Origin: Candidatus Thioglobus autotrophicus
GTDB lineage: Bacteria > Pseudomonadota > Gammaproteobacteria > PS1 > Pseudothioglobaceae
Direction of reading: 5' to 3'
Length of the DNA: 42,257 nt
NCBI GenBank assembly: GCA_022448455.1
Contig: JAKUUR010000014.1
Location: forward strand, 1 to 42,257
The translations under genes and the position numbers were made by a program. Positions 3-23,608 of the stretch are shown piece by piece (position 1 is the first letter of the stretch; each line of letters starts with the position of its first letter). The notes below the pieces were generated by a model. That model did no database searches. It saw only the letters and a program-made list of their open reading frames with translations, and was not told the origin of the DNA.

Positions 3-116
3 TGTAGTATTGAGGAGGTTGGTTATTATCGAATAAGACCACCAGTTACTCCTATAACGCTTGGTGAACTATCTACTGCAAAAATGACTAAACCAACAGT
101 AACTCGTTCCAACTAG
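3..116 (+). CDS. possible 3' end of an unidentified gene (partial)
   Basis: One plus-strand frame is open from the left edge to a TAG stop at 114-116 and encodes 37 residues, including [12 protein letters not shown] do not recognise it. If real, its end would overlap the converging umuC by 29 bp. It is too short to judge coding bias well, and it could be chance. It is listed because the left edge may cut a gene. Confidence 0.22.
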
Positions 117-1368
117 TCGTATACCTATTTGACCTAAAATCAGCCCTTGATTGCCACATATCATTGCCCACTTCACTTGCATATTTGACTGACTCATTGA
201 AGCGCCTGTTTATGCTTTGTATGGCATTAAATTTGCTGTAGTTGTCTGCCTTCGATTGACTATTTTGATTCATCGAAAATAGGTCCTGCTGACGGTAATT
301 TTTGCTTAGATTTCCTAGCACTATACCTCCCTTGTAGAATGAGTGTCCTGGCTCATAGATAAGCTTTAGTATCTTGGCTGTGAGTGGTATCAGTAGTGAC
401 TCATCTTGAGTGGCTGTAGTCATTCCAACAGTTTTTGATAAATGCACACAGGGCTTGTCTTTTTTGTGAGGATTGGTGTAAATAAAGACGGTAAGGGTTG
501 TGGCTGCCAGTTTGTGATTATTAAGCTTATTAACAGCCCTCCTAGTAAGGATAGTGAGCGCCTGATTCAATTCATCAAAGTCCGTTAAATCAGCCCCAAA
601 CGAACGAGAGGAGACGATCTGTTGCCTGGTTGGTGGAATACACTCAATAGATACGCAGGAGTGGCCACGAAGTTCTTGGTACACCCTCTTGCCGTTAACC
701 CCTAAAAGGGTTTCAATGATGCCAATATCTGCTTTATAAAAATCATAGCTGGAGTTAATGTTAATACGGCTGAGCTTTTTAGCACTCTGTCTTCCTATAC
801 CCCATAAATCCCCCACTTCAACAGACCGCAACAACCTTTTATATCTCTGATATGGTAGTGCATCTATATCAAAAACTCCATTAAATTTTGGGTACTTCTT
901 GGCAATGCGATTTGCAAGCTTAGCCAAAACTTTAGTGCTGCCCATACCGACACAAACTGGGACACCTGTCCAGCATCTAACCTGTCTCCTTAGGGACTGC
1001 ATATGGGTTACCAGGTCAAATGGCAGCCCTTCCAAGTCTATGAAACTTTCATCGATAGAATAGATCTCTTGAATGGGAGAGTACTGAGCAATAATCCTCA
1101 TCACTCTTGACGACATGTCTCCATACAGAGGATAGTTAGAAGACCTAACTACAACGTCATTTTGAAGAATCAGGTTTTTGATTTGGAAGTAAGGCACCCC
1201 CATCTTGATGCCTAGCGCTTTTGCCTCATTAGAGCGGGCAACAATACAACCATCATTATTCGACAGTACAACGATTGGCTTTCCTTCTAGTTTAGGTTCA
1301 AATACTCTTTCACAGGAAGCATAGAAGTTATTGCAGTCAATCAAGGCAAACTTATTGTTCTTAGTCAT
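88..1368 (-). CDS. umuC: DNA polymerase V catalytic subunit UmuC (Y-family)
   Basis: Encodes 426 residues, close to the 422 of E. coli UmuC. It is an error-prone Y-family DNA polymerase that copies past lesions together with processed UmuD. Visible motifs are the first catalytic Asp in [17 protein letters not shown] (D11) and the palm motif YSIDESF (D106, E107). QQDLF at about 360-364 fits a beta-clamp binding motif before the C-terminal tail. The start ATG lies inside the end of umuD, sharing ATGACTAA (1361-1368), which implies translational coupling. It is co-transcribed from the promoter upstream of umuD. No truncation or missing catalytic residue is seen. Confidence 0.96.
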
Positions 1369-1942
1369 ACTGATGTATCACTGAGGTGACGACGCCCCAT
1401 ATAATGAGTTCATCGGTACCCCCAACTTTAATGTCTTCAAACTCAGGATTTTCAGCTTTGAGAGTTATATTTCCTTTGTATTTGTGTAGTCGCTTAACAG
1501 TGAATTCACCATCAACAACCGCAATCACTATCTTGCCGCTTTTGGCAGTTAGGGATTTATCGACTATCAATATGTCGCCTTGCTGGATGCCAGCACCCAG
1601 CATTGAATCGCCCTGCGCCTTCACGAAGAAGGTGGCATCTTTGTGCTGAATGAGGTGTGTGTTTAGGTCAAGTGCATCCTCTAGATGGTCATCTGCCGGT
1701 GACGGGAAGCCTGCTTGTACGCGCGAGGTAAAAATCGGAATCATCAGTTCTGCTGTATTCTCTTTAGTAAGCAGAACTTCTACCCCTGTCTTGACTTGGG
1801 ATTTATATACCTCAATAGAGGGAAGGATAGAGTCAACAAGGCTGATTGGTACTCTGAGGACCTTGGTATCCTCCTTAAAACTACCTGAATTTTTTTTACG
1901 ACCAGCACCTTTTCTGGCGCCACCGTGGTTATGTGCATTCAT
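1361..1942 (-). CDS. umuD: UmuD-like S24 peptidase with N-terminal extension
   Basis: Encodes 193 residues from ATG 1942. An upstream in-frame ATG at 1990 would start before the predicted transcript, so I reject it. The C-terminal part (about 66-193) is a UmuD/LexA self-cleaving serine protease: cleavage-site equivalent A77-G78 in QAGFPSP, nucleophile S113 in GDSM, general base K150 in [10 protein letters not shown]. coli UmuD is 139 residues, so about 55 residues are extra. They hold a basic [14 protein letters not shown] stretch and then [14 protein letters not shown], which resembles a small DNA-binding module. In the family, RecA-stimulated cleavage makes UmuD' for Pol V. A repressor role is inferred from the extension and the operator-like palindrome beside the start. 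Confidence 0.93.
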
Positions 1943-1945
1943 AAT

Positions 1946-1976
1946 CAACTTGAATTTTGTAACAATATTCAAGTTG
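1946..1976. promoter_or_regulatory. 31-bp near-perfect palindrome, candidate operator of umuDC
   Basis: The arms CAACTTGAAT (1946-1955) and ATTCAAGTTG (1967-1976) are exact inverted complements. Inside them TTGT and ACAA pair again around a central A, leaving only one T/T mismatch per half. It lies between the predicted transcription start and the umuD ATG, a usual place for a repressor site. It is not the gammaproteobacterial LexA box CTGT-N8-ACAG. It could also fold as a hairpin in the 5' leader and mask ribosome binding. Confidence 0.7.
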
Positions 1977-1978
1977 AG

Positions 1979-2007
1979 ATTATAGATCAACTATTATGCA
2001 TAGTCAA
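1979..2007 (-). promoter_or_regulatory. sigma-70 promoter of umuDC
   Basis: On the minus strand there is TTGACT (2007-2002), exactly 17 bp, then TATAAT (1984-1979). Both hexamers are at or next to consensus. The predicted start falls near 1972, within the palindrome, so binding there would block transcription. No convincing terminator separates it from the gene ending at 2026, so some read-through from the purine operon is possible. Confidence 0.75.
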
Positions 2008-2025: not shown

Positions 2026-3381
2026 CTAAGCGCTAGCCAGTTGACGTAATTTTTTCGCTGCATCGCTGTGGCGGTGAATTAATTCAGCTTCATCTTTGTC
2101 AACTATCTTTCCGTCAACGACTCGCCACTGCCCCGCTACCATTACCCTGTCTGCTCTTTGTGCGCCACACAGCAATAACGCTGCCAAGGGATCATGGCTG
2201 CCAGAAAACCTCAGCTCGTCTAGCTTAAATAGTGCCAGGTCTGCTTGCTTTCCGGTTGCTATTTCACCGATATCGTTTCTACCTAAAAGTTTCGCTGAGC
2301 CTGTGCTTGCCCAGTCATATGCATGCTCATGGGTAATCTTTGAGGCGCCATAGCGTAGGCGCTGTAAATACATTCCCTGTCTAAGCTCAGCTATCAAATT
2401 GGATCCGTCATTAGAGGCAGAACCGTCCACACCTAGGCCTACAGTACATCCAGCCTCTTCGAGCTCAAGGCTTCGACAAATTCCGGAGCCTAGCATCATA
2501 TTTGAGCTCGGACAGTGACAGATGCCTACCCCGGATTTACCTAGCTTTTGTATCTCTTCCTGATTGAAGTGGATACCATGCGCTAGCCATGTACGTTCAG
2601 ACAACCAACCAACACTTTCAAGATAGTCGACCGTTCTTAAGCCAAATTTTTCTAGGCAAAAATTTTCTTCGTCTATGGTTTCAGCTAGATGGGTGTGTAA
2701 TCGGACGTCATATTGTTCGGCAAGCTCTGCCGTATCTCGCATCAGCTCAGTGGTCACAGAAAAAGGCGAACATGGCGCCAAAGCGATCTGGATCATCGCA
2801 CCTTCATCGGGATCGTGGTAGCTTTTAATTAGTCGCTCACTGTCACTCAATATCTGCTCTTTAGTCTGTACCACACTTTGTGGCGGAAGCCCTCCATCCT
2901 TTTCCCCCAAGCTCATCGAACCTCTTGTCAGAACCACTCTCACTCCTAGCTTTTGGGCTTGTTCTACCTGAATATCTATCGCATTTTCGAGCTGACTGGG
3001 AAACAAATAATGGTGATCACTTGCGGTGGTACAACCGGACAGTAACAGCTCAGATAGTGCCAATTCAGTCGAGACTGCCAACATCTCTGGTTGGATATGT
3101 GCCCACACCTTATATAGACTCTTTAACCAGGGAAATAATTCTTTATTCAAAGCCTCTGGATAAGCCCTGGTAAGGGTTTGGTAGAAGTGATGGTGGGTAT
3201 TGATTAGCCCCGGTAAAACGACACTGTCGCTGGCATCATAAACCTCATCAATTTGTGACAATGGAGCCTTTCCAACACCAACTAACTCAATAATGTCTTG
3301 ACCTTTAATGACAACGCCGCCATTGCTATTTTTTGCGTATATAGCAAGTGGATTTTTAACCCAAATCGTTGCTTCATTCAT
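2026..3381 (-). CDS. 8-oxoguanine deaminase (amidohydrolase family)
   Basis: Encodes 451 residues of the TRZ/ATZ-like amidohydrolase group. Metal-site motifs appear in order: H63/H65 in INTHHHFYQTLTRAYP, LHTHLAET, HGIHF and VDGSASNDGSN. This subset, with HFYQTLTRA and CHCPSSNMML, matches bacterial 8-oxoguanine deaminases, which turn 8-oxoguanine into urate plus ammonia. They sit beside hydroxyatrazine and guanine deaminases in the superfamily. It is the last gene of the purine array, 50 bp after adenine deaminase, which supports a purine substrate and would feed urate into the pathway. Isoguanine or isocytosine deamination is the main alternative. No strong Shine-Dalgarno is seen at the ATG. 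Confidence 0.82.
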   Translation of the reverse strand: MNEATIWVKNPLAIYAKNSNGGVVIKGQDIIELVGVGKAPLSQIDEVYDASDSVVLPGLINTHHHFYQTLTRAYPEALNKELFPWLKSLYKVWAHIQPEMLAVSTELALSELLLSGCTTASDHHYLFPSQLENAIDIQVEQAQKLGVRVVLTRGSMSLGEKDGGLPPQSVVQTKEQILSDSERLIKSYHDPDEGAMIQIALAPCSPFSVTTELMRDTAELAEQYDVRLHTHLAETIDEENFCLEKFGLRTVDYLESVGWLSERTWLAHGIHFNQEEIQKLGKSGVGICHCPSSNMMLGSGICRSLELEEAGCTVGLGVDGSASNDGSNLIAELRQGMYLQRLRYGASKITHEHAYDWASTGSAKLLGRNDIGEIATGKQADLALFKLDELRFSGSHDPLAALLLCGAQRADRVMVAGQWRVVDGKIVDKDEAELIHRHSDAAKKLRQLASA

Positions 3382-3431
3382 AATTGGTCTGCACCAGAGT
3401 TAGTAAAGTTCTTGATGATACATAATGACAT

Positions 3432-4451
<1,020 letters not shown>

Positions 4452-4475
4452 TTATAAAATATTTCTAGCCCCAAT

Positions 4476-4510
4476 AATGAAATCGCACCCAAAAGGGTGC
4501 GATTATCATT
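4476..4510 (-). terminator. stem-loop between binding-protein gene and adenine deaminase
   Basis: AATCGCACCC (4481-4490) and GGGTGCGATT (4495-4504) form a perfect 10-bp stem with an AAAA loop. AATGA and TCATT extend it past one bulged A. No U-run follows on the minus strand, so it looks more like a 3' stabilising or attenuating hairpin than a full terminator. Equivalent hairpins follow the other two binding-protein genes of the window. Confidence 0.7.
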
Positions 4511-4530
4511 AAAGCTTAAATGAACTTTTA

Positions 4531-5613
4531 TTAGTTAGGATACTTACTGTCAATTCCTTCTACATAAAAATCCATAGTTATGATGTCGGGGAACATAGGT
4601 GGTGTTTCACCTTCCGCCAACCATGGGCTACCGTCTTGCTTGTTGATAGGGCCGGTGAACGGATGAACAGCACCAGCGTCTAGGTCAAGTATAGTGTCTT
4701 GAGCCTCCCACATAACTTCGTCAGGCATATTTGTGAATGGAGCAAATTCAACCATACCTTCCGCAACACCATCGAATGTATCGGTTGATGTCCAAGTGCC
4801 ATCTGCTACAGCCTTGACTCGAGCTACGTAATATGGACCCCATTCATCAATAATTGAAGTCAAATGAGCGTTTGGACCCCAAGCTGTCATATCAGACGCC
4901 TGACCAAAAGCGAGTACCCCTTCGTCTTCAGCTACAGTCATAGGTGCTGTTGAGTCGGTATGTTGCATGATAATATCTGCGCCCTGGGCTATAAGTGCAC
5001 GAGCCGCATCTGCCTCTTTACCTGGATCAAACCAAGTGTAAACCCAAACAATTTTGATTTGGATATCAGGGTTAACAGATTTTGCCGCTAGAAAAGCAGC
5101 GTTAATACCACGGATAACTTCAGGGATTGGGAATGAAGCAATATAACCAATTATATTACTATTTGTCATTCTGCCAGCAATCTTACCTATAACGTGTCTA
5201 CCTTCATAAAATCTCGCAGAATAGGTAGAAATATTATCAGTAGGACGCATATAGCCTGTTGCGTGTTCAAATTTAACATCTGGATAACGCGCCGCGACCT
5301 TTACTGTGGGGTTCATATATCCAAACGATGTGGTGAAAATAATATCATTTTTCCTGGCAAGGCTCGTAATAACACGCTCAGAATCGGAATTCTCAGCAAC
5401 ACTTTCTATACGTGTTATAACTACGCCATCACCTAGTTGATCTTGAACCATATTTGCACCTTGATCATGTGCATAAGTCCATCCATGGTCTCCTGTTGGA
5501 CCAATATAGACAAAAGCTGCTTTTACAGGGTCAGCAAAGGCACCGCCTGTAAATGCCAACATTGAGCTTAATAACGAGAACTTCAAAATACTCGTTAATT
5601 TTCGATTAGCCAT
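4531..5613 (-). CDS. BMP-family periplasmic substrate-binding protein (purine importer)
   Basis: Encodes 360 residues. A Sec signal ends near GGAFA|DPV (after A27), and no lipobox Cys is present, so it should be a soluble periplasmic protein. The mature start AAFVYIGPTGDHGWTYAHDQG is typical of the BMP/PnrA family branch found with purine genes. A clear AAGGAGAAG Shine-Dalgarno precedes the ATG. It follows the ATPase and two permease genes and should feed that importer. Substrates are inferred to be purine bases or related compounds such as xanthine, urate or adenine, since the flanking genes all handle bases. It shares only family resemblance with the plus-arm binding protein. Confidence 0.85.
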   Translation of the reverse strand: MANRKLTSILKFSLLSSMLAFTGGAFADPVKAAFVYIGPTGDHGWTYAHDQGANMVQDQLGDGVVITRIESVAENSDSERVITSLARKNDIIFTTSFGYMNPTVKVAARYPDVKFEHATGYMRPTDNISTYSARFYEGRHVIGKIAGRMTNSNIIGYIASFPIPEVIRGINAAFLAAKSVNPDIQIKIVWVYTWFDPGKEADAARALIAQGADIIMQHTDSTAPMTVAEDEGVLAFGQASDMTAWGPNAHLTSIIDEWGPYYVARVKAVADGTWTSTDTFDGVAEGMVEFAPFTNMPDEVMWEAQDTILDLDAGAVHPFTGPINKQDGSPWLAEGETPPMFPDIITMDFYVEGIDSKYPN

Positions 5614-5689
5614 ATCTTCTTCTCCTTTTTTATTTAACGATTTACTTGCTTGTTTTACTAATTTCTAGTTGACAACTTAGTGATGAAAA

Positions 5690-6619
5690 CTAAGATGTTG
5701 AATGAAATATTCTACCCAAACAATTGGGCATTGTGCGGTTTGTTTTGTTTTTATCTCTCATTCTTAAACTCACCAGTATGACAATCGTTGCCAAATAAGG
5801 CAACATTGACAGGTATTGTGCACTGATCCTAACATCAAAACCTTGGGCATGAAGTTGCAGAATTGTAATACCTCCAAAAATGAGTGCACCTAATATAACT
5901 TTAAAGGGCTGCCATGATGAAAAAACAACTAGTCCAATTGCAATCCAGCCACGACCAGCGGTCATATCTTCACCCCAAATTGGCACCTGCACTAAAGACA
6001 AAAAGGCGCCACCAATGCCAGCCATTGCACCACCAAATAGGATTGCCAATACACGGTAGCGAATAACGTTGTGTCCTATCGCATGGGCTGCATCGTGGTT
6101 GTCGCCTATAGCTCTTAATGTTAACCCTTGTTTAGTTTTAAATAAAAACCACCACACCAAAAACACCATAAAGAAGGCAAGATATACAAGTGGGTTATAA
6201 CTAAACAGCAACGGTCCAACGATAGGAAAATCGGAAAGCAAAGGGATATGGATTGCGGAGATCAGTTGAATATTCTCTTCACTATAACCTCTACCTATAA
6301 AAGCTGCAATTCCAAGACCAAATAGCGTCAAAGCGAGTCCAGTTGCTACTTGATTTGTCAGTAATATTTGCGTTAAGAATGCAAAAATAGAGGCAATTGC
6401 CATGCCCGCTAGTAATGCTGCCAATACTGCTAAAAAAGAACTTCCAGTATGAAATTCAATAACAAAACCGGCCAGCGCTCCAACAATCATCATTCCCTCG
6501 ACTCCTAAATTAAGAACACCTGAGCGTTCAACTAGCAGTTCCCCTATTGCTGCAAAAATCAATGGCACAGAAGCAATACTGATTCCTATAATAATGGCAA
6601 TTATCAGACCTTCATTCAT
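5690..6619 (-). CDS. ABC importer permease, purine importer (second subunit)
   Basis: Encodes 309 residues, very hydrophobic, with about 8-10 membrane segments. It belongs to the BMP-type nucleoside/sugar permease family (BPD_transp_2). Recognisable blocks are ERSGVLNLGVEGMM near residues 31-44 and the cytoplasmic LRAIGDNHDAAHAIG loop that contacts the ATPase. It starts in a 4-nt ATGA overlap with the preceding permease gene, so the two are translationally coupled. It pairs with that permease to make a heterodimeric channel. The binding-protein gene follows after 76 bp. Confidence 0.88.
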   Translation of the reverse strand: MNEGLIIAIIIGISIASVPLIFAAIGELLVERSGVLNLGVEGMMIVGALAGFVIEFHTGSSFLAVLAALLAGMAIASIFAFLTQILLTNQVATGLALTLFGLGIAAFIGRGYSEENIQLISAIHIPLLSDFPIVGPLLFSYNPLVYLAFFMVFLVWWFLFKTKQGLTLRAIGDNHDAAHAIGHNVIRYRVLAILFGGAMAGIGGAFLSLVQVPIWGEDMTAGRGWIAIGLVVFSSWQPFKVILGALIFGGITILQLHAQGFDVRISAQYLSMLPYLATIVILVSLRMRDKNKTNRTMPNCLGRIFHSTS

Positions 6620-7695
6620 AATTTTTGTCGTATGGTTTTAAAGAAAACAATCTTGTATTGAATTAATACGTCACAGGCAAGAAAATAAAACAGCAACATG
6701 CCTTGAAATATGTTCGTTATTGAGCTTGGTAAATTGAAATAAATTTGTACATTCTCACCACCAATATAAGTGAGCGCTATCAATAAAGATGAGAAGATAA
6801 TAGCGATCGGGTGCAGCCTTGACAAAAAGGCCACAATAATTGCAGTAAAGCCATAAAATTGCGGCAATCCAGGGGTGATTTGGCCGGCAGGGCCTATGAC
6901 TTCAAATAAACCAGCTAGCCCAGCTACGCCACCCGATATTAGCAATGCAAACCAGATAGTTTTCTTGTCATCAAAGCCTGCAAATTTAGCAGCGCGAGGA
7001 GCACTACCGGTTATTTTTATTTGTAAGCCCGACAAATGTCTTTTGATACCAAACCAGGTCACAAATGAAAGAATAACAGCAATAATTAAACCAATATTTA
7101 ATCGTGTTCCTTGCCAAATAATGGGTAACAATGCGCTATCATGAAATGGTCGACTTTCTGGAAAATTAAAGCCAGAAGGGTTTCTCATCGGTCCTTGTAG
7201 CATCGCACTAAGAAACAATACAGCAACATAGGTCAGCATAAGTGTCACTAAGATTTCATTGACTTGATATTTGGTCTTTAGAAATGCAGCAATACCGGCA
7301 TAAAACATACCCCCTAAGATTGCCGCTAAGGACATTAAAGGTATCAACCAGAATCCCTCAACGTTATAAAAATATAGCCCGACGGCACCACCAGTTATTC
7401 CGCCAATAACGTACTGGCCCTCAGCACCAATATTCCACACACCAGCTCTAAAGCCAATCGAAAGCCCAAGCGCTATCATAATCAGTGGTGCTGCCTTCAC
7501 TAATAATTCAGAAATGTAGTATGTATCAATCAAAGGCTCCACGAATAGTGTGTAAAAAACACTGGATACTTCGATATCAGTCAATATAAAAGCAAAAATA
7601 AAAAATGCCGTCACAGCCGTCAATGTAAGCGCCAATAATGGCGACAAGAAAATCATTGCTTTAGAGGGTTGAGTGCGCGGTATGAGTCTGATCAT
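6616..7695 (-). CDS. ABC importer permease, purine importer (first subunit)
   Basis: Encodes 359 residues of the BPD_transp_2 permease family, longer than its partner because of the N-terminal hydrophobic region. The block IGFRAGVWNIGAEGQYVIGG and the later SAPRAAKFAGFDDKK coupling loop are typical of the larger subunit in BMP-type importers. It overlaps the ATPase stop by 4 nt and the next permease start by 4 nt. It acts in the inner membrane with the ATPase and the binding protein encoded downstream. Confidence 0.88.
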   Translation of the reverse strand: MIRLIPRTQPSKAMIFLSPLLALTLTAVTAFFIFAFILTDIEVSSVFYTLFVEPLIDTYYISELLVKAAPLIMIALGLSIGFRAGVWNIGAEGQYVIGGITGGAVGLYFYNVEGFWLIPLMSLAAILGGMFYAGIAAFLKTKYQVNEILVTLMLTYVAVLFLSAMLQGPMRNPSGFNFPESRPFHDSALLPIIWQGTRLNIGLIIAVILSFVTWFGIKRHLSGLQIKITGSAPRAAKFAGFDDKKTIWFALLISGGVAGLAGLFEVIGPAGQITPGLPQFYGFTAIIVAFLSRLHPIAIIFSSLLIALTYIGGENVQIYFNLPSSITNIFQGMLLFYFLACDVLIQYKIVFFKTIRQKL

Positions 7696-9191
7696 TGCTT
7701 CTCACTCCCAACCATTAAATTTGAGATTTTTTCTAGGCCATTGTCCTCCATGTCAACAGCAGCTGAAAGACTACCTTCTGAGAGAACATGAACCTGTTCA
7801 CATAAAGTCAGTATCTCATCCAAATCCTGAGAAATAATCAGTATCGCTGAGCCCTGATCAGCCAAAGCGATCAATGACTGGTGAATATTGTTTTCAGAGC
7901 CCGCATCGACACCCCAGGTTGGCTGGGAAACAATTAACAATTCAGGGTTTTGAATTAACTCTCTACCAACCATAAACTTTTGCAAATTCCCACCTGAGAG
8001 TGATTTAGCCAACATTTTGCTGGACTGGGTTTGCACTTTAAAATCATCGATAACTTGTTGTGTGAGTTTCTCAACATTCTGCCAATTAATGACCCCGTAA
8101 TTCGTCATTTCACTCTTTTGGGGTCTGCTGAGTAGCATATTTTCGTGTAGCCCCATATCCGGTACTGCACCATGACCTAAGCGCTCTTCAGGAATAAAAA
8201 ACATTGACAACTGTCTTCTCTGATGGGGGTTCAGTCGACCAACGTCTTCACCCTTAAAAATCAGAGAATCAGCTGGTGCTTCAACCTCACCAATCAATAG
8301 CTCCATTAATTCATCCTGACCATTACCGGCAACGCCGGCTATTCCTACTATACTGCCTTGCTTGATGGTCAAAGAGATATCATGCAGATCAACGCCAAAC
8401 ATGTCTTCACTTTTTCGACTTAAATTGTTAATTGAGAAGATATCTTGTCCGGTCGTTATATTGCTTCTTGCTAATTGAACTAATTTTTTACCGATCATCA
8501 TCTCAGCAAGTTCCTGCTTATTGTGATCCTGGGGATTGCAATTTTGCACCAACTGGCCGCCTCGTAAAATAGTGGCCTCAGAGCATAATTGACGGACCTC
8601 TTCTAACTTATGTGAAATATACAAAATGGCACAGCCATCCTCTGCTAGTTTTCGTAGCGTTATAAATAAATCAGTCACCTCCTGTGGTGTCAAAACCGAG
8701 GTTGGTTCATCCATAATTAACAGTTTTGGATTCTGCATCAAGCAACGGATGATTTCAACTCTTTGGCGAGCTCCAACTGACAAATCACCGACCACTTGTT
8801 GTGGATTAATATCTAGACCATATTGCTTCGAATATTTAATAATTTGTTCAGTGAAATCAGTATCCAGACCAATATCGTCAAGACCGAGTATGATGTTTTC
8901 AGCAACAGTCAAGGATTCAAACAATGAAAAGTGTTGGAATACCATCGCTATACCCTGCTCTCTCGCCTCAAAGGGACTCTTTGGACTATATCCTTCACCA
9001 CACCATTGCATTTGTCCACTGTCAGCCTGTAAAGAGCCATAGATGACTTTCACTAAGGTCGATTTACCTGCCCCGTTTTCACCCAACAAAGCATGAATAC
9101 TTGCAGGTTTAATACTGAGCGAAATATCATCATTGGCCTTTAAATCTCCATACGATTTCGTGATGTTTTGAATTTCTAACTGATATTTCAT
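7692..9191 (-). CDS. ABC importer ATPase with two nucleotide-binding domains
   Basis: Encodes 499 residues with tandem ATPase domains. Domain 1 has Walker A GENGAGKST (37-45), signature LSVGARQRVE and Walker B LLIMDEPTSV. Domain 2 has the family's usual degenerate Walker A (GVAGNGQDE), signature SGGNLQKF and LLIVSQPTWGVD, so only one site is expected to hydrolyse ATP well. This layout is normal for BMP-type nucleoside and sugar importers. The gene overlaps both xdhC and the next permease by 4 nt. That ties purine import to xanthine dehydrogenase assembly in one transcript. Confidence 0.92.
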   Translation of the reverse strand: MKYQLEIQNITKSYGDLKANDDISLSIKPASIHALLGENGAGKSTLVKVIYGSLQADSGQMQWCGEGYSPKSPFEAREQGIAMVFQHFSLFESLTVAENIILGLDDIGLDTDFTEQIIKYSKQYGLDINPQQVVGDLSVGARQRVEIIRCLMQNPKLLIMDEPTSVLTPQEVTDLFITLRKLAEDGCAILYISHKLEEVRQLCSEATILRGGQLVQNCNPQDHNKQELAEMMIGKKLVQLARSNITTGQDIFSINNLSRKSEDMFGVDLHDISLTIKQGSIVGIAGVAGNGQDELMELLIGEVEAPADSLIFKGEDVGRLNPHQRRQLSMFFIPEERLGHGAVPDMGLHENMLLSRPQKSEMTNYGVINWQNVEKLTQQVIDDFKVQTQSSKMLAKSLSGGNLQKFMVGRELIQNPELLIVSQPTWGVDAGSENNIHQSLIALADQGSAILIISQDLDEILTLCEQVHVLSEGSLSAAVDMEDNGLEKISNLMVGSEKQ

Positions 9192-20923: not shown

Positions 20924-21955
20924 ATGAAACACACGAAAAGCTCACGATTAGGTGGGTTAATTAAAAAAACAAGTCTGGCTTTGATTGCTGGCGCATTTGT
21001 CTTATCTGCGTCTATAGCGCAAGCTGATATTAAGCCTGCCGTAGTATACGACATTGCCGGTAAGAACGACCAATCTTTCAATGAAGCTGTATTTGTAGGA
21101 ATAACTAAGTATATGAATGATACTGGTATTGCTGTTACAGAACTTGAGCCTACAAACGCTGCTCAAGTAGAACAAAGCTTGAAGAAGCTCGCTTCACGTG
21201 GTTATGAACCTATCGTCGCTGTTGGTTTTGCCATGGCTAATGCGGTGCAAGCCGCTGCTGAAGCTTATCCGGATACAAAATTCACTCTAATTGATATGGT
21301 TGTAGGATTACCTAATGTTCAGAACGTGTTATACAAAGAGCATGAAGGCTCCTTCCTTGTCGGTGTGTTGGCAGCCATGAATTCCAAGACTGGCACTGTA
21401 GGTTTTATCGGCGGTATGGATATTCCTTTGATTAGCCGCTTTGAGTGTGGCTATAAGCAAGGTGTTAAATGGCAAGATAGCTCTATGAATGTACTTGCTA
21501 ATATGACTGGCTCAACCCCGGCAGCATTTGGTAACCCATCTAAAGGTGGTGAATTGACCCGTACCCAGATCCAAAATGGAGCTGATGTGGTCTATGCAGC
21601 TGCAGGTGGCACAGGTTCCGGCGTCTATCAAGCCGCTGCCGATGCAGGTGTTCTGGCTATCGGTGTTGACTCAAATCAGAACTGGATGCAACCTGGCACT
21701 ATGCTAACCTCTATGTTAAAGAGAGTAGGAGAAGCCGCTTATGATAGCTATGAAGCAGCAAACAATGGTACCTGGGAAGCTGGCTTTAGAATTCTAGGAC
21801 TTGCTGAGGATGGTGTTGGTTGGGCTCTAGACGAGTACAACCGTGACCTAATCACTCCAGAAATGGAAGCACGCGTAAATGAAGCCAGAGACGCAATTAT
21901 TGCTGGCGACATTGTAGTACATGATTACATGGCGGATGATAGCTGCCCAATCTAA
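20924..21955 (+). CDS. BMP-family periplasmic substrate-binding protein (nucleoside importer)
   Basis: Encodes 343 residues. The signal peptide ends at SIAQA|DIK (after A34) with no lipobox, so the protein is probably soluble in the periplasm. The mature start AVVYDIAGKNDQSFNEAVFVG matches the PnrA/BMP nucleoside-binding type. The remainder shows VGFIGGMDIPLISRFECGYKQG, typical of the family. An AAGGAGAAG site precedes the ATG. It heads the plus-strand nucleoside operon, and a strong stem-loop separates it from the ATPase gene. Nucleosides are the likely ligands because cytidine deaminase and phosphorylase genes follow. Confidence 0.9.
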   Translation: MKHTKSSRLGGLIKKTSLALIAGAFVLSASIAQADIKPAVVYDIAGKNDQSFNEAVFVGITKYMNDTGIAVTELEPTNAAQVEQSLKKLASRGYEPIVAVGFAMANAVQAAAEAYPDTKFTLIDMVVGLPNVQNVLYKEHEGSFLVGVLAAMNSKTGTVGFIGGMDIPLISRFECGYKQGVKWQDSSMNVLANMTGSTPAAFGNPSKGGELTRTQIQNGADVVYAAAGGTGSGVYQAAADAGVLAIGVDSNQNWMQPGTMLTSMLKRVGEAAYDSYEAANNGTWEAGFRILGLAEDGVGWALDEYNRDLITPEMEARVNEARDAIIAGDIVVHDYMADDSCPI

Positions 21956-21973
21956 CTACTAGTTTTATCCATT

Positions 21974-22003
21974 AATACATCCGACCTTAGGGTCGGATGT
22001 ATT
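21974..22003 (+). terminator. 13-bp stem-loop after the nucleoside-binding protein gene
   Basis: AATACATCCGACC (21974-21986) pairs perfectly with GGTCGGATGTATT (21991-22003) around a TTAG loop. Only a weak U stretch follows. It probably stabilises or partly terminates the binding-protein message so that this subunit is made in excess of the membrane components. Confidence 0.78.
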
Positions 22004-22051
22004 ATATGTACGACTATAAAATATTATTGTATTTAGTTTAGAATTACAACT

Positions 22052-23608
22052 ATGGACAATTCTCATATAGCAATTGAACTAATCGATGTAGACAAACATT
22101 TCGGTGCCGTTCATGCCAATGACAAAGTATCTCTGACTGTTAAGACTGGAACTATCCATGGCATTGTAGGCGAGAATGGCGCCGGTAAATCAACATTGAT
22201 GAGTATTTTGTACGGCTTTTATCAGGCAGACTCAGGGCATATTAAAGTCTTTGAGAAAGACTGCAAATTTACTAGCTCACGTCAATCTATCGACGCGGGT
22301 ATTGGTATGGTTCATCAGCACTTTATGTTAGTTGAAAACTTTACTGTACTAGAAAACGTCATTTTGGGAACTGAGGGTGGCGCCTTAATCTCAGAAAGCT
22401 TAGAAAAAGCTCGCAAAGAGCTTACACGTCTTGGTGTTGAATATGGTCTGGAAGTAGATTTAGATACACCCGTTGAATCACTATCGGTAGGAATACTGCA
22501 AAGAGTTGAAATTCTCAAGGGTTTATATAAAGGCGCCAAGATTCTAATCTTGGATGAACCCACAGGTGTACTAACACCCCAAGAAACAGATGAGCTTTTT
22601 CGTATCTTTACTTCACTAAAAGAGCAAGGCGTAACCATCATTTTAATTACTCATAAGCTCCGCGAGATCATGAGCATCACAGACCAAGTGTCAGTCATGC
22701 GTGATGGAAAAATGGTAGCGCATCGACAAACAAATGAAACCAGCTTTGAAGAGCTAGCTGAATTAATGATCGGCCGCAAAGTATTGCTAAATATAGATAA
22801 ATCAGAATCAAAAAGTGGTTCACCAGTACTGAAAGTAAAAAACCTACATGTCTCAAACGAACAAGGTATTGAACGTGTTAAAGATGTCAGTTTTGAAGTC
22901 TGTTCTGGTGAAGTTCTTGGGATTGCCGGTGTTACCGGAAATGGTCAAGGGACGCTATTGAAAGCTTTAACCGGTATTTTGCCTTTGACTGAAGGCAGTA
23001 TTGAAGTCTTTGGTGAAATCATAACTTCTAATAATCATCTTGGACCCAAAATATTGCGTGAATTGGGTATAGCACATGTACCAGAAGATCGTCAAAGGAT
23101 GGGTTTGATTACTGAATTTAGTGCCAGTGAATCAGCCCTCCTAGGTTATCACAATGACAAACAGCTCAATCAAGGATTATGGCTTAAAAAATCATTAGTA
23201 AGGGACAACTGTGAATCTTTAATGTCTGCCTTTGATGTGCGTCCAGCAGACCCTAAACTAAAATCATCTAATTTTTCGGGTGGCAACCAACAAAAACTCA
23301 TTGTAGCTCGAGAATTCGAACGCAATCCTGAAGTCTTAATTATTGGTCAGCCGACCCGTGGAGTCGACATTGGTGCCATTGAATTTATTCATAAGAGGAT
23401 TATTGCTATGCGAGATGCAGGCAAAGCTGTTGTTCTGGTTTCTGTTGAATTAGAAGAAATTATGTCGCTCAGTGATCGTATCATTGTTATGTGTGATGGA
23501 CAAATTACCGGCAAAGTGGATGCGATAGATGCCGAAGAGCGCACACTAGGTATGATGATGGCCAACGTACTGAATCCATCAGAAACAAACCAAGAGGCAC
23601 AGCCATGA
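22052..23608 (+). CDS. ABC importer ATPase, nucleoside importer (two domains)
   Basis: Encodes 518 residues with tandem ATPase domains. Domain 1: Walker A GENGAGKST (40-48), LSVGILQRVE, LILDEPTGVLTP. Domain 2: degenerate GVTGNGQGT, SGGNQQKLIVAREF and LIIGQPTRGVDIG. This is the standard architecture of BMP-type nucleoside importers. It is more canonical in its second domain than the purine-arm ATPase (TRGVDIG rather than TWGVDAG). Its stop overlaps the next permease start by 4 nt. Confidence 0.92.
   Translation: MDNSHIAIELIDVDKHFGAVHANDKVSLTVKTGTIHGIVGENGAGKSTLMSILYGFYQADSGHIKVFEKDCKFTSSRQSIDAGIGMVHQHFMLVENFTVLENVILGTEGGALISESLEKARKELTRLGVEYGLEVDLDTPVESLSVGILQRVEILKGLYKGAKILILDEPTGVLTPQETDELFRIFTSLKEQGVTIILITHKLREIMSITDQVSVMRDGKMVAHRQTNETSFEELAELMIGRKVLLNIDKSESKSGSPVLKVKNLHVSNEQGIERVKDVSFEVCSGEVLGIAGVTGNGQGTLLKALTGILPLTEGSIEVFGEIITSNNHLGPKILRELGIAHVPEDRQRMGLITEFSASESALLGYHNDKQLNQGLWLKKSLVRDNCESLMSAFDVRPADPKLKSSNFSGGNQQKLIVAREFERNPEVLIIGQPTRGVDIGAIEFIHKRIIAMRDAGKAVVLVSVELEEIMSLSDRIIVMCDGQITGKVDAIDAEERTLGMMMANVLNPSETNQEAQP

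Follow-up and report, generated by a model that had tools for sequence, protein, structure and literature searches.

The window analysed here, a stretch of 42,257 nucleotides of a Candidatus Thioglobus autotrophicus genome, carries near its start a umuDC operon, with a long palindrome lying between promoter and umuD. Which protein reads this palindrome, and could it be UmuD itself? The features of the locus are the following, in window coordinates.

88..1368, minus strand: umuC, 426 amino acids, catalytic subunit of pol V (PF00817, PF11799, PF13438; NF002955 E 6e-109, under the cut-off).
1361..1942, minus strand: umuD, 193 amino acids, an S24 peptidase with an N-terminal extension, proposed autorepressor and precursor of a pol V subunit (PF00717 E 9.7e-34; NF007621 over the cut-off; 48% identity to A. 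baumannii UmuDAb).
1712..1942, minus strand: N-terminal part of UmuD, which would be lost on the predicted self-cleavage at Ala77-Gly78 (GGARKGAGR at residues 7-15, TKVLRVP at 26-32, helix at 33-51, from alignments and an AlphaFold2 model).
1945..1977, no strand assigned: palindrome of 33 nt, the proposed UmuD operator (15 of 16 pairs; single copy in the genome; conserved).
1950..1972, minus strand: core operator TTGA-N5-GTTAC-N5-TCAA, 23 bp (TTGA, GT.AC and TCAA invariant in 37 of 37 orthologues; arms and core as in the published UmuDAb operator).
1979..2007, minus strand: sigma-70-type promoter TTGACT-N17-TATAAT (11 of 12 consensus positions).

The umuDC operon and its promoter region

The UmuD protein matches the NCBI UmuD model NF007621 with 164.8 bits against a cut-off of 110 and has its umuC partner downstream, the two genes overlapping by 8 nt. 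The open frame of umuD extends 16 further codons upstream, across the palindrome, but a start at the ATG at 1942 fits the orthologues. The residues A77, G78, S113 and K150 are invariant among 62 aligned sequences, and from Ala77-Gly78, Ser113 and Lys150 a self-cleavage at Ala77-Gly78 is predicted. The closest UmuDs, up to 90% identical, were found in the SUP05 cluster and Candidatus Thioglobus (protein search, best 80 of 580 relatives). Beside umuDC (2026-9191) the window encodes an 8-oxoguanine deaminase, an adenosine deaminase and a BMP-type ABC transporter (under the model cut-off); that genes of purine metabolism adjoin a mutagenic polymerase is probably chance.

On the minus strand a -35 element TTGACT (2007-2002) is followed, after 17 nt, by a -10 element TATAAT (1984-1979), and the consensus promoter that had been predicted for umuD is thus borne out. 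Directly 3' of the -10 element, over the expected start site, lies the palindrome (1977-1945), composed of two 16-nt arms that are complementary at 15 of 16 positions, with one central base between them; its end is separated by 2 nt from the umuD ATG (1942-1940). A near-perfect palindrome at this position had likewise been predicted, although its length was put at 31 bp and is in fact 33 nt. The TTGAA-N13-TTCAA arrangement around a central GTNAC is present as described, and on reading positions 1943-2030 no CTGT-N8-ACAG was seen at the umuD promoter, in line with the claim that a LexA box of this form is lacking.

The whole window was scanned for palindromes with 16-nt arms, at most one mismatch and 0-3 nt between the arms. 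Two were found, at 1945-1977 and 21973-22004, whereas 60 dinucleotide shuffles yielded none, and a chance origin of the palindrome was rejected. The sequence TTGAATNTTGTNACAANATTCAA, searched with up to three mismatches, occurs a single time in the 1.71-Mb genome, at umuD. The second near-perfect palindrome (16-nt arms, one mismatch) is situated between an ORF ending at 21955 and an ORF starting at 22052, both ABC-transporter-like, and is possibly a terminator.

Operator, LexA and regulon in the Thioglobus family

A UmuD match was obtained in 39 genomes of the family, two of which (G007 and G056) are fragments, and the upstream DNA was read for the remaining 37. All 37 umuD genes carry TTGA-N5-GTNAC-N5-TCAA at 0-8 nt before the ATG, and operator columns 1-4, 10-11, 13-15 and 20-23 (TTGA, GT.ACA, TCAA) are invariant throughout. 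The palindrome is thus conserved in relatives, a point on which the original prediction depended, and the invariant columns correspond to the arms and core that are important for UmuDAb, plus one extra A. The promoter is less constant than the operator, a TTG-type -35 together with TATAAT being recognisable in 21 of the 37 orthologues. In 12 of them (L024-L031, L045, L049-L051) the start codon stands immediately 3' of the core operator, inside the right arm of the palindrome; translation of umuD may be leaderless there, and UmuD bound at its operator would cover its own start codon.

A palindrome in a leader might also act as RNA, in the form of a hairpin that serves as attenuator or in translation control. 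The umuD leader of the window does fold, at -12.3 kcal/mol (z -4.0), and the leader of L092 has a z of -3.8, but in the close relative L089 the leader folds at -4.6 kcal/mol with a z of -0.9. Moreover, core columns 7 and 17 are unable to pair in at least 23 of the 37 sites while the letters of arms and core are invariant, and among the relatives described below the distance between the end of a site at 11/12 positions or better and the start codon ranges from 0 to 46 nt. We regard the hairpin as very unlikely and prefer to read the palindrome as a DNA site bound by UmuD.

LexA was searched for in 145 genomes, of which 83 (G000-G082) belong to the Thioglobus family. In none of the 83 does a match exceed the LexA cut-off; weaker matches number 38 in the family and fall on the UmuDs themselves. 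In the genome of the window the sole match to the LexA model (TIGR00498) is UmuD, with 93.5 bits against a cut-off of 110.95 and from model position 65 on; recA is present. A lexA gene with the same palindrome in its own promoter was consequently not encountered in the 83 family genomes. It could nevertheless be argued that the palindrome is the organism's own LexA box and that the LexA reading it is absent from the genome bin, which is 95% complete, so that one gene could be missing. The family argues otherwise, since several of its genomes without a LexA match consist of a single contig and are 99-100% complete; two further points, the form of the boxes at domain-less UmuDs and the LexA-bearing genomes, are taken up below. 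The UmuDAb corepressor DdrR was found in none of the 83 family genomes, with a query that detects DdrR in four of seven Acinetobacter records. In the family genera g2 and g4 (e.g. G029, G031 and G048), complete or near-complete genomes gave no match to UmuD or to LexA under the thresholds applied.

The extent of the regulon was addressed with the pattern TTGAWTNNTGTNACANNAWTCAA, sought with at most two mismatches in 24 genomes that were chosen for such a site at umuD. It gave 39 sites, against 6 for the reversed pattern used as control. One genome (G163) has no TTGAWTNNTGTNACANNAWTCAA site at this threshold; in each of the other 23 a site adjoins a UmuD match, and in 16 of these it is the only one. 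A single site, at umuD, was found in each of six family genomes, and the scan of the window's own genome with TTGAATNTTGTNACAANATTCAA likewise returned one site, at umuD. A looser pattern, TTGAA-N3-5-GTNAC-N3-5-TTCAA, gave extra matches over the family; the five inspected (L169-L173) fall inside reading frames, two of them in what we take, from its sequence, to be an L23-like ribosomal protein gene. In G193, a record titled Legionella santicrucis, an extra operator (contig C85, L246:1066) precedes a lone umuC without umuD, which suggests control in trans. Similarly, umuC genes are reported among the UmuDAb targets in A. baumannii (PMC11332147).

Pairing of the N-terminal domain with the operator

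The window UmuD and UmuDAb share an N-terminal domain motif, GGxRxGAGR...TKxxR[VI]P, followed by a helix. In 14 aligned sequences G7, G8, R10, G14, R15, T26, R30 and P32 of the domain are invariant. Among the Pfam matches of 62 members no model describes the domain; besides Peptidase_S24 there are only isolated weak matches, each in 1-2 of the 62. An AlphaFold2 model built on 62 sequences (mean pLDDT 74, pTM 0.52) consists of an extended stretch and a single helix (33-51), followed by the S24 domain; it contains no helix-turn-helix, and the fold of the domain is uncertain in it, with block pLDDT values of 51-82. The strong Foldseek matches of the model are UmuD', LexA and cI, and neither Pfam nor Foldseek yielded a known fold for the domain itself. 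On the strand-then-helix pattern a ribbon-helix-helix fold was considered, which is at most speculative.

Whether domain and operator occur together was assessed on UmuD loci picked by protein alignment alone, blind to the upstream DNA (best 80 of 580 relatives). The 100 nt before each start codon were scanned for TTGA-Nk-GT(N)AC-Nk-TCAA, with k from 3 to 7 and a threshold of at least 11 of 12 positions. The operator was found at 48 of the 65 UmuDs with the domain motif and at none of the 15 without it, two of which (L125 and L143) contain a portion of the domain, which was called by motif. The domain-bearing loci scored 12/12 in 27 cases, 11 in 21, 10 in 8 and lower in 9, which leaves 17 of 65 without a site at the threshold, whereas no domain-less locus scored above 10. 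The pattern had been widened to GTAC and N3-N7 after the result of a first, narrower scan (GTNAC, N4/N5) was known, in which 28 of 65 domain-bearing and 0 of 15 domain-less loci reached 11; the 1300 dinucleotide shuffles were scanned with the widened pattern, and 0.31% of them reach 11 and none 12.

The pairing does not depend on the kin of the window, as 40 of 57 domain-bearing loci have the operator when these (L089-L095, L135) are left out, and 34 of 51 when Acinetobacter is left out as well. With one row per 65% protein cluster the counts are 17 of 27 against 0 of 7. Operator-bearing records are titled Legionella, Methylococcus, Methylophilaceae, Hydrogenophilales, Halothiobacillus, Acinetobacter, Opitutales (Verrucomicrobiota) and Candidatus Actinomarina (Actinomycetota), among others. 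On plasmids, two Acinetobacter records have exact N4 sites and a Sulfuricella plasmid has an N5 site with one mismatch; at the umuD of a Synechococcus plasmid no operator site was found. The core is GTNAC in 28 of the 48 sites and GTAC, without the middle base, in 20; the resulting 22-bp form occurs at L096, L097, L110, L153, L112, L116, L118 and L130, among others. In further samples the domain-bearing UmuDs L177 (the same gene as L208), L178, L206, L039, L053 and L042 reach 11/12, L040 and L188 stay below the threshold at 10 and 9, and L038 and L041 have no operator site; L207, with a broken domain motif and no site, was counted on neither side.

The site might alternatively be bound by an unrelated transcription factor, the N-terminal domain of UmuD having another role. 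Binding of UmuD is a prediction, and the 17 domain-bearing umuD genes without a clear site leave some room for this view. It would however take a coincidence for one such factor to track the UmuD domain over Pseudomonadota, Verrucomicrobiota and Actinomycetota, and the UmuDAb of Acinetobacter, whose N-terminal domain is the same, itself binds these arms and this core (PMC11332147). We therefore hold another factor to be unlikely and UmuD to be the probable ligand of the operator.

UmuDs that lack the domain come from 398 evenly sampled Pseudomonadota genomes, in which the 30 best loci and another 20 were read; L179 and L181-L184, with LexA-like N-termini, as well as L180 and L185, were omitted from the count. 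None of the 36 domain-less UmuDs (19 + 4 + 13) has the operator at 11/12 or better, whereas CTGT-N8-ACAG without mismatch lies within 100 nt in 18 cases, namely 16 of the 19 best-scoring ones and 2 of the 17 others (with the first ATG in frame as start codon). In the 80-locus set, LexA-type boxes of several kinds lie within 150 nt of one gene among the 65 with the domain and of four among the 15 without it; in the latter group the gammaproteobacterial box is absent and four genes show GAAC-N4-GTTC. The operator thus tracks the domain, and the LexA box tracks the absence of the domain only in part.

These boxes also bear on the idea of a LexA missing from the bin, since the CTGT-N8-ACAG at domain-less UmuDs of relatives is of another form than the palindrome. 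In addition, a LexA over the cut-off is present in 13 of the 50 genomes behind domain-bearing loci, and 9 of these 13 nonetheless have the operator at umuD (L096, L097, L098, L100, L106, L112, L116, L122 and L146), while it is missing in 4 (L109, L111, L113 and L119). The absence of LexA from the other 37 is weak evidence because genome completeness was not given for them. The pair of operator and domain exists also where LexA is present, and we consider a LexA box read by a missing LexA to be improbable to the point of being negligible, again in favour of UmuD as the reader of the site.

In a tree of the S24 domain (117 columns; 108 rows, which are not independent) the operator is found at 50 of 68 domain-bearing and 0 of 40 other UmuDs, five of the latter having LexA-like N-termini. 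L109, L163 and rows without a recognised 90-residue S24 stretch (among them L084, L087 and L188) were omitted. Three independent pairs are supported on the tree, with a mean of 1.3 for the association and 0 against; with the deep forks so poorly resolved, this paired comparison is too weak to be used. The domain label changes at least 3 times on supported branches and 13 times on the best tree, which is compatible with loss, gain and transfer alike. The UmuD of L100, a MAG record titled Chloroflexi, is placed with weak support among alphaproteobacterial UmuDs, either through transfer or because the contig was wrongly binned.

Spacer and protein lengths also appear to go together. Among L089-L168, the UmuDs at operators with N4 spacers have 11-12 residues between GR and R[VILM]P in 7 of 7 cases, and those at operators with N5 spacers have 9, 10, 14 or 15 in 40 of 41. 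We treat this as a lead, because the N4 rows come from Acinetobacter and Aquitalea only, that is, from few independent clades.

The proposed switch and its relation to known systems

Together the data argue for a circuit in which UmuD represses umuDC through the palindrome and a RecA-triggered self-cleavage both ends the repression and makes UmuD', a reading to which we assign a probability of about 0.85; binding, repression, cleavage and induction by damage we infer alike from sequence. Before cleavage UmuD would form a dimer through its S24 domain and bind the 23-33 bp site via the N-terminal domain, with contacts to the DNA presumably made by the GGxRxGAGR arm, the TKxxRVP segment and the one helix. 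With the site overlapping the umuDC promoter from immediately downstream of the -10 element on, the bound dimer would block this promoter. Upon DNA damage, RecA filaments would stimulate the self-cleavage of UmuD at Ala77-Gly78. The DNA-binding domain would then leave the dimer, by which umuDC is predicted to be derepressed, and the same cut would yield UmuD', the active subunit of pol V. Because neither LexA nor DdrR was found and six family genomes have a single site each, the transcriptional SOS response visible here amounts to one operon. The LexA-independent SOS-type circuit that was originally proposed is supported in this form, with binding and induction by damage as its predicted elements; the N-terminal domain and the broad occurrence of the pair go beyond what that proposal contained.

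UmuDAb has so far been treated as a peculiarity of Acinetobacter (PMC3978071, PMC11332147, PMC10100956). According to these papers, it 'appears unique' to that organism (PMC10100956), its DNA-binding domain was possibly acquired there (PMC11332147) and fellow Moraxellaceae lack umuD (PMC3978071). The accessible open-licence literature yielded no UmuD repressor outside Acinetobacter/Moraxellaceae (cf. PMC7273328, PMC9578287), nor any report that combines Thioglobus and UmuD, and Acinetobacter seems so far to be the only source of a described UmuD repressor of this kind. What is new is the occurrence of domain and operator together well outside Acinetobacter, the same elements being found in SUP05 bacteria, Legionella relatives, Methylococcus, Opitutales, Actinomarina and on plasmids. 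Genomes without LexA that were counted as 'no SOS' can now be screened for the pair by means of a single protein motif and a single DNA pattern. If the proposed circuit is true, it would be about the smallest conceivable damage response, in which a single protein is repressor, sensor and mutagenic polymerase subunit, all three being switched by the same cut.

Taking these results jointly, we lean slightly towards the view that UmuDs with GGxRxGAGR form an old and widespread class of combined repressors and polymerase subunits, a one-operon SOS switch that occurs on plasmids and in three phyla or more. UmuDAb would then be a local member and not an Acinetobacter invention, and the E. coli-type UmuD would be derived, having lost the domain and come under the control of LexA. 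The domain, made up of an arm, a short extended segment and a single helix, would represent an undescribed DNA-binding unit, with operator variants of the 23-bp GTNAC, the 22-bp GTAC and the 4-base-spacer type.

Among the known systems UmuDAb, with its corepressor DdrR (PMC11332147, PMC4807011), is alike in its S24 domain, its N-terminal motif, an operator with TTGA/TCAA arms and a GTNAC core, and the lack of LexA. Its operator is given as TTGA(N4)GTWAC(N4)TCAA, and by EMSA competition arms and core both matter in A. baumannii, the core counting more for binding than either arm (PMC11332147). The resemblance put forward in the original prediction agrees with this published operator: arms and core are the same, and a ten-letter stretch of the published A. 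baumannii probe, TCAACTTGAA, is found again at the window operator. The UmuDAb gene was taken from L083, a chromosome-sized A. baumannii record filed as plasmid, where the operator reads TTGAAAATGTAACTTTTTCAA and the N-terminus MPKKKEFEHGGARENAGRKAQFNEPTKVIRVPESQV; its segment GGARENAGRKAQFNEPTKVIRVPESQV aligns with residues 7-36 of the window UmuD, the whole proteins being 48% identical. The UmuDAb changes E24K and K40/N41 to proline are reported to be derepressing, with binding reduced only slightly and dimerisation more important (PMC11332147); by our count from the sequence, these positions correspond to the nearly invariant E24 and the single helix of the family.

The two systems differ in that the spacers are N4 in UmuDAb and, one base longer per side, N5 in the window as in all 37 family sites, although Acinetobacter loci themselves have N5 spacers at L164 and L168 besides N4 at L121, L137, L148 and L162. 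Furthermore, UmuDAb has DdrR, its several umuDC and umuC targets in A. baumannii (PMC11332147) contrast with the single site in each of six family genomes, and it has been published with a predicted helix-turn-helix, which the model of the window UmuD does not show. The circuit is best called UmuDAb-like, because the exact spacing, DdrR and the multiple targets are not shared.

With LexA the window UmuD has in common an S24 domain of the self-cleaving repressor type with an Ala-Gly site, but the DNA-binding domain and the box are others, and UmuD has one predicted target operon. The Bacteroidetes SOS repressors and FddR of Francisella are likewise S24 proteins that control an SOS-like response without LexA; they are related to phage repressors or constitute a separate family, carry other motifs and are not UmuDs (PMC8565304, PMC13148647), and the UmuDs of Bacteroidetes are without a DNA-binding domain (PMC8565304). 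Finally, the E. coli-type UmuD resembles the window UmuD in its S24 domain, which is over the NCBI UmuD cut-off, and in the umuC gene downstream, whereas the window UmuD has about 50 extra N-terminal residues (residue 14 of the E. coli protein aligns to residue 67) and an operator of its own in place of the LexA box.
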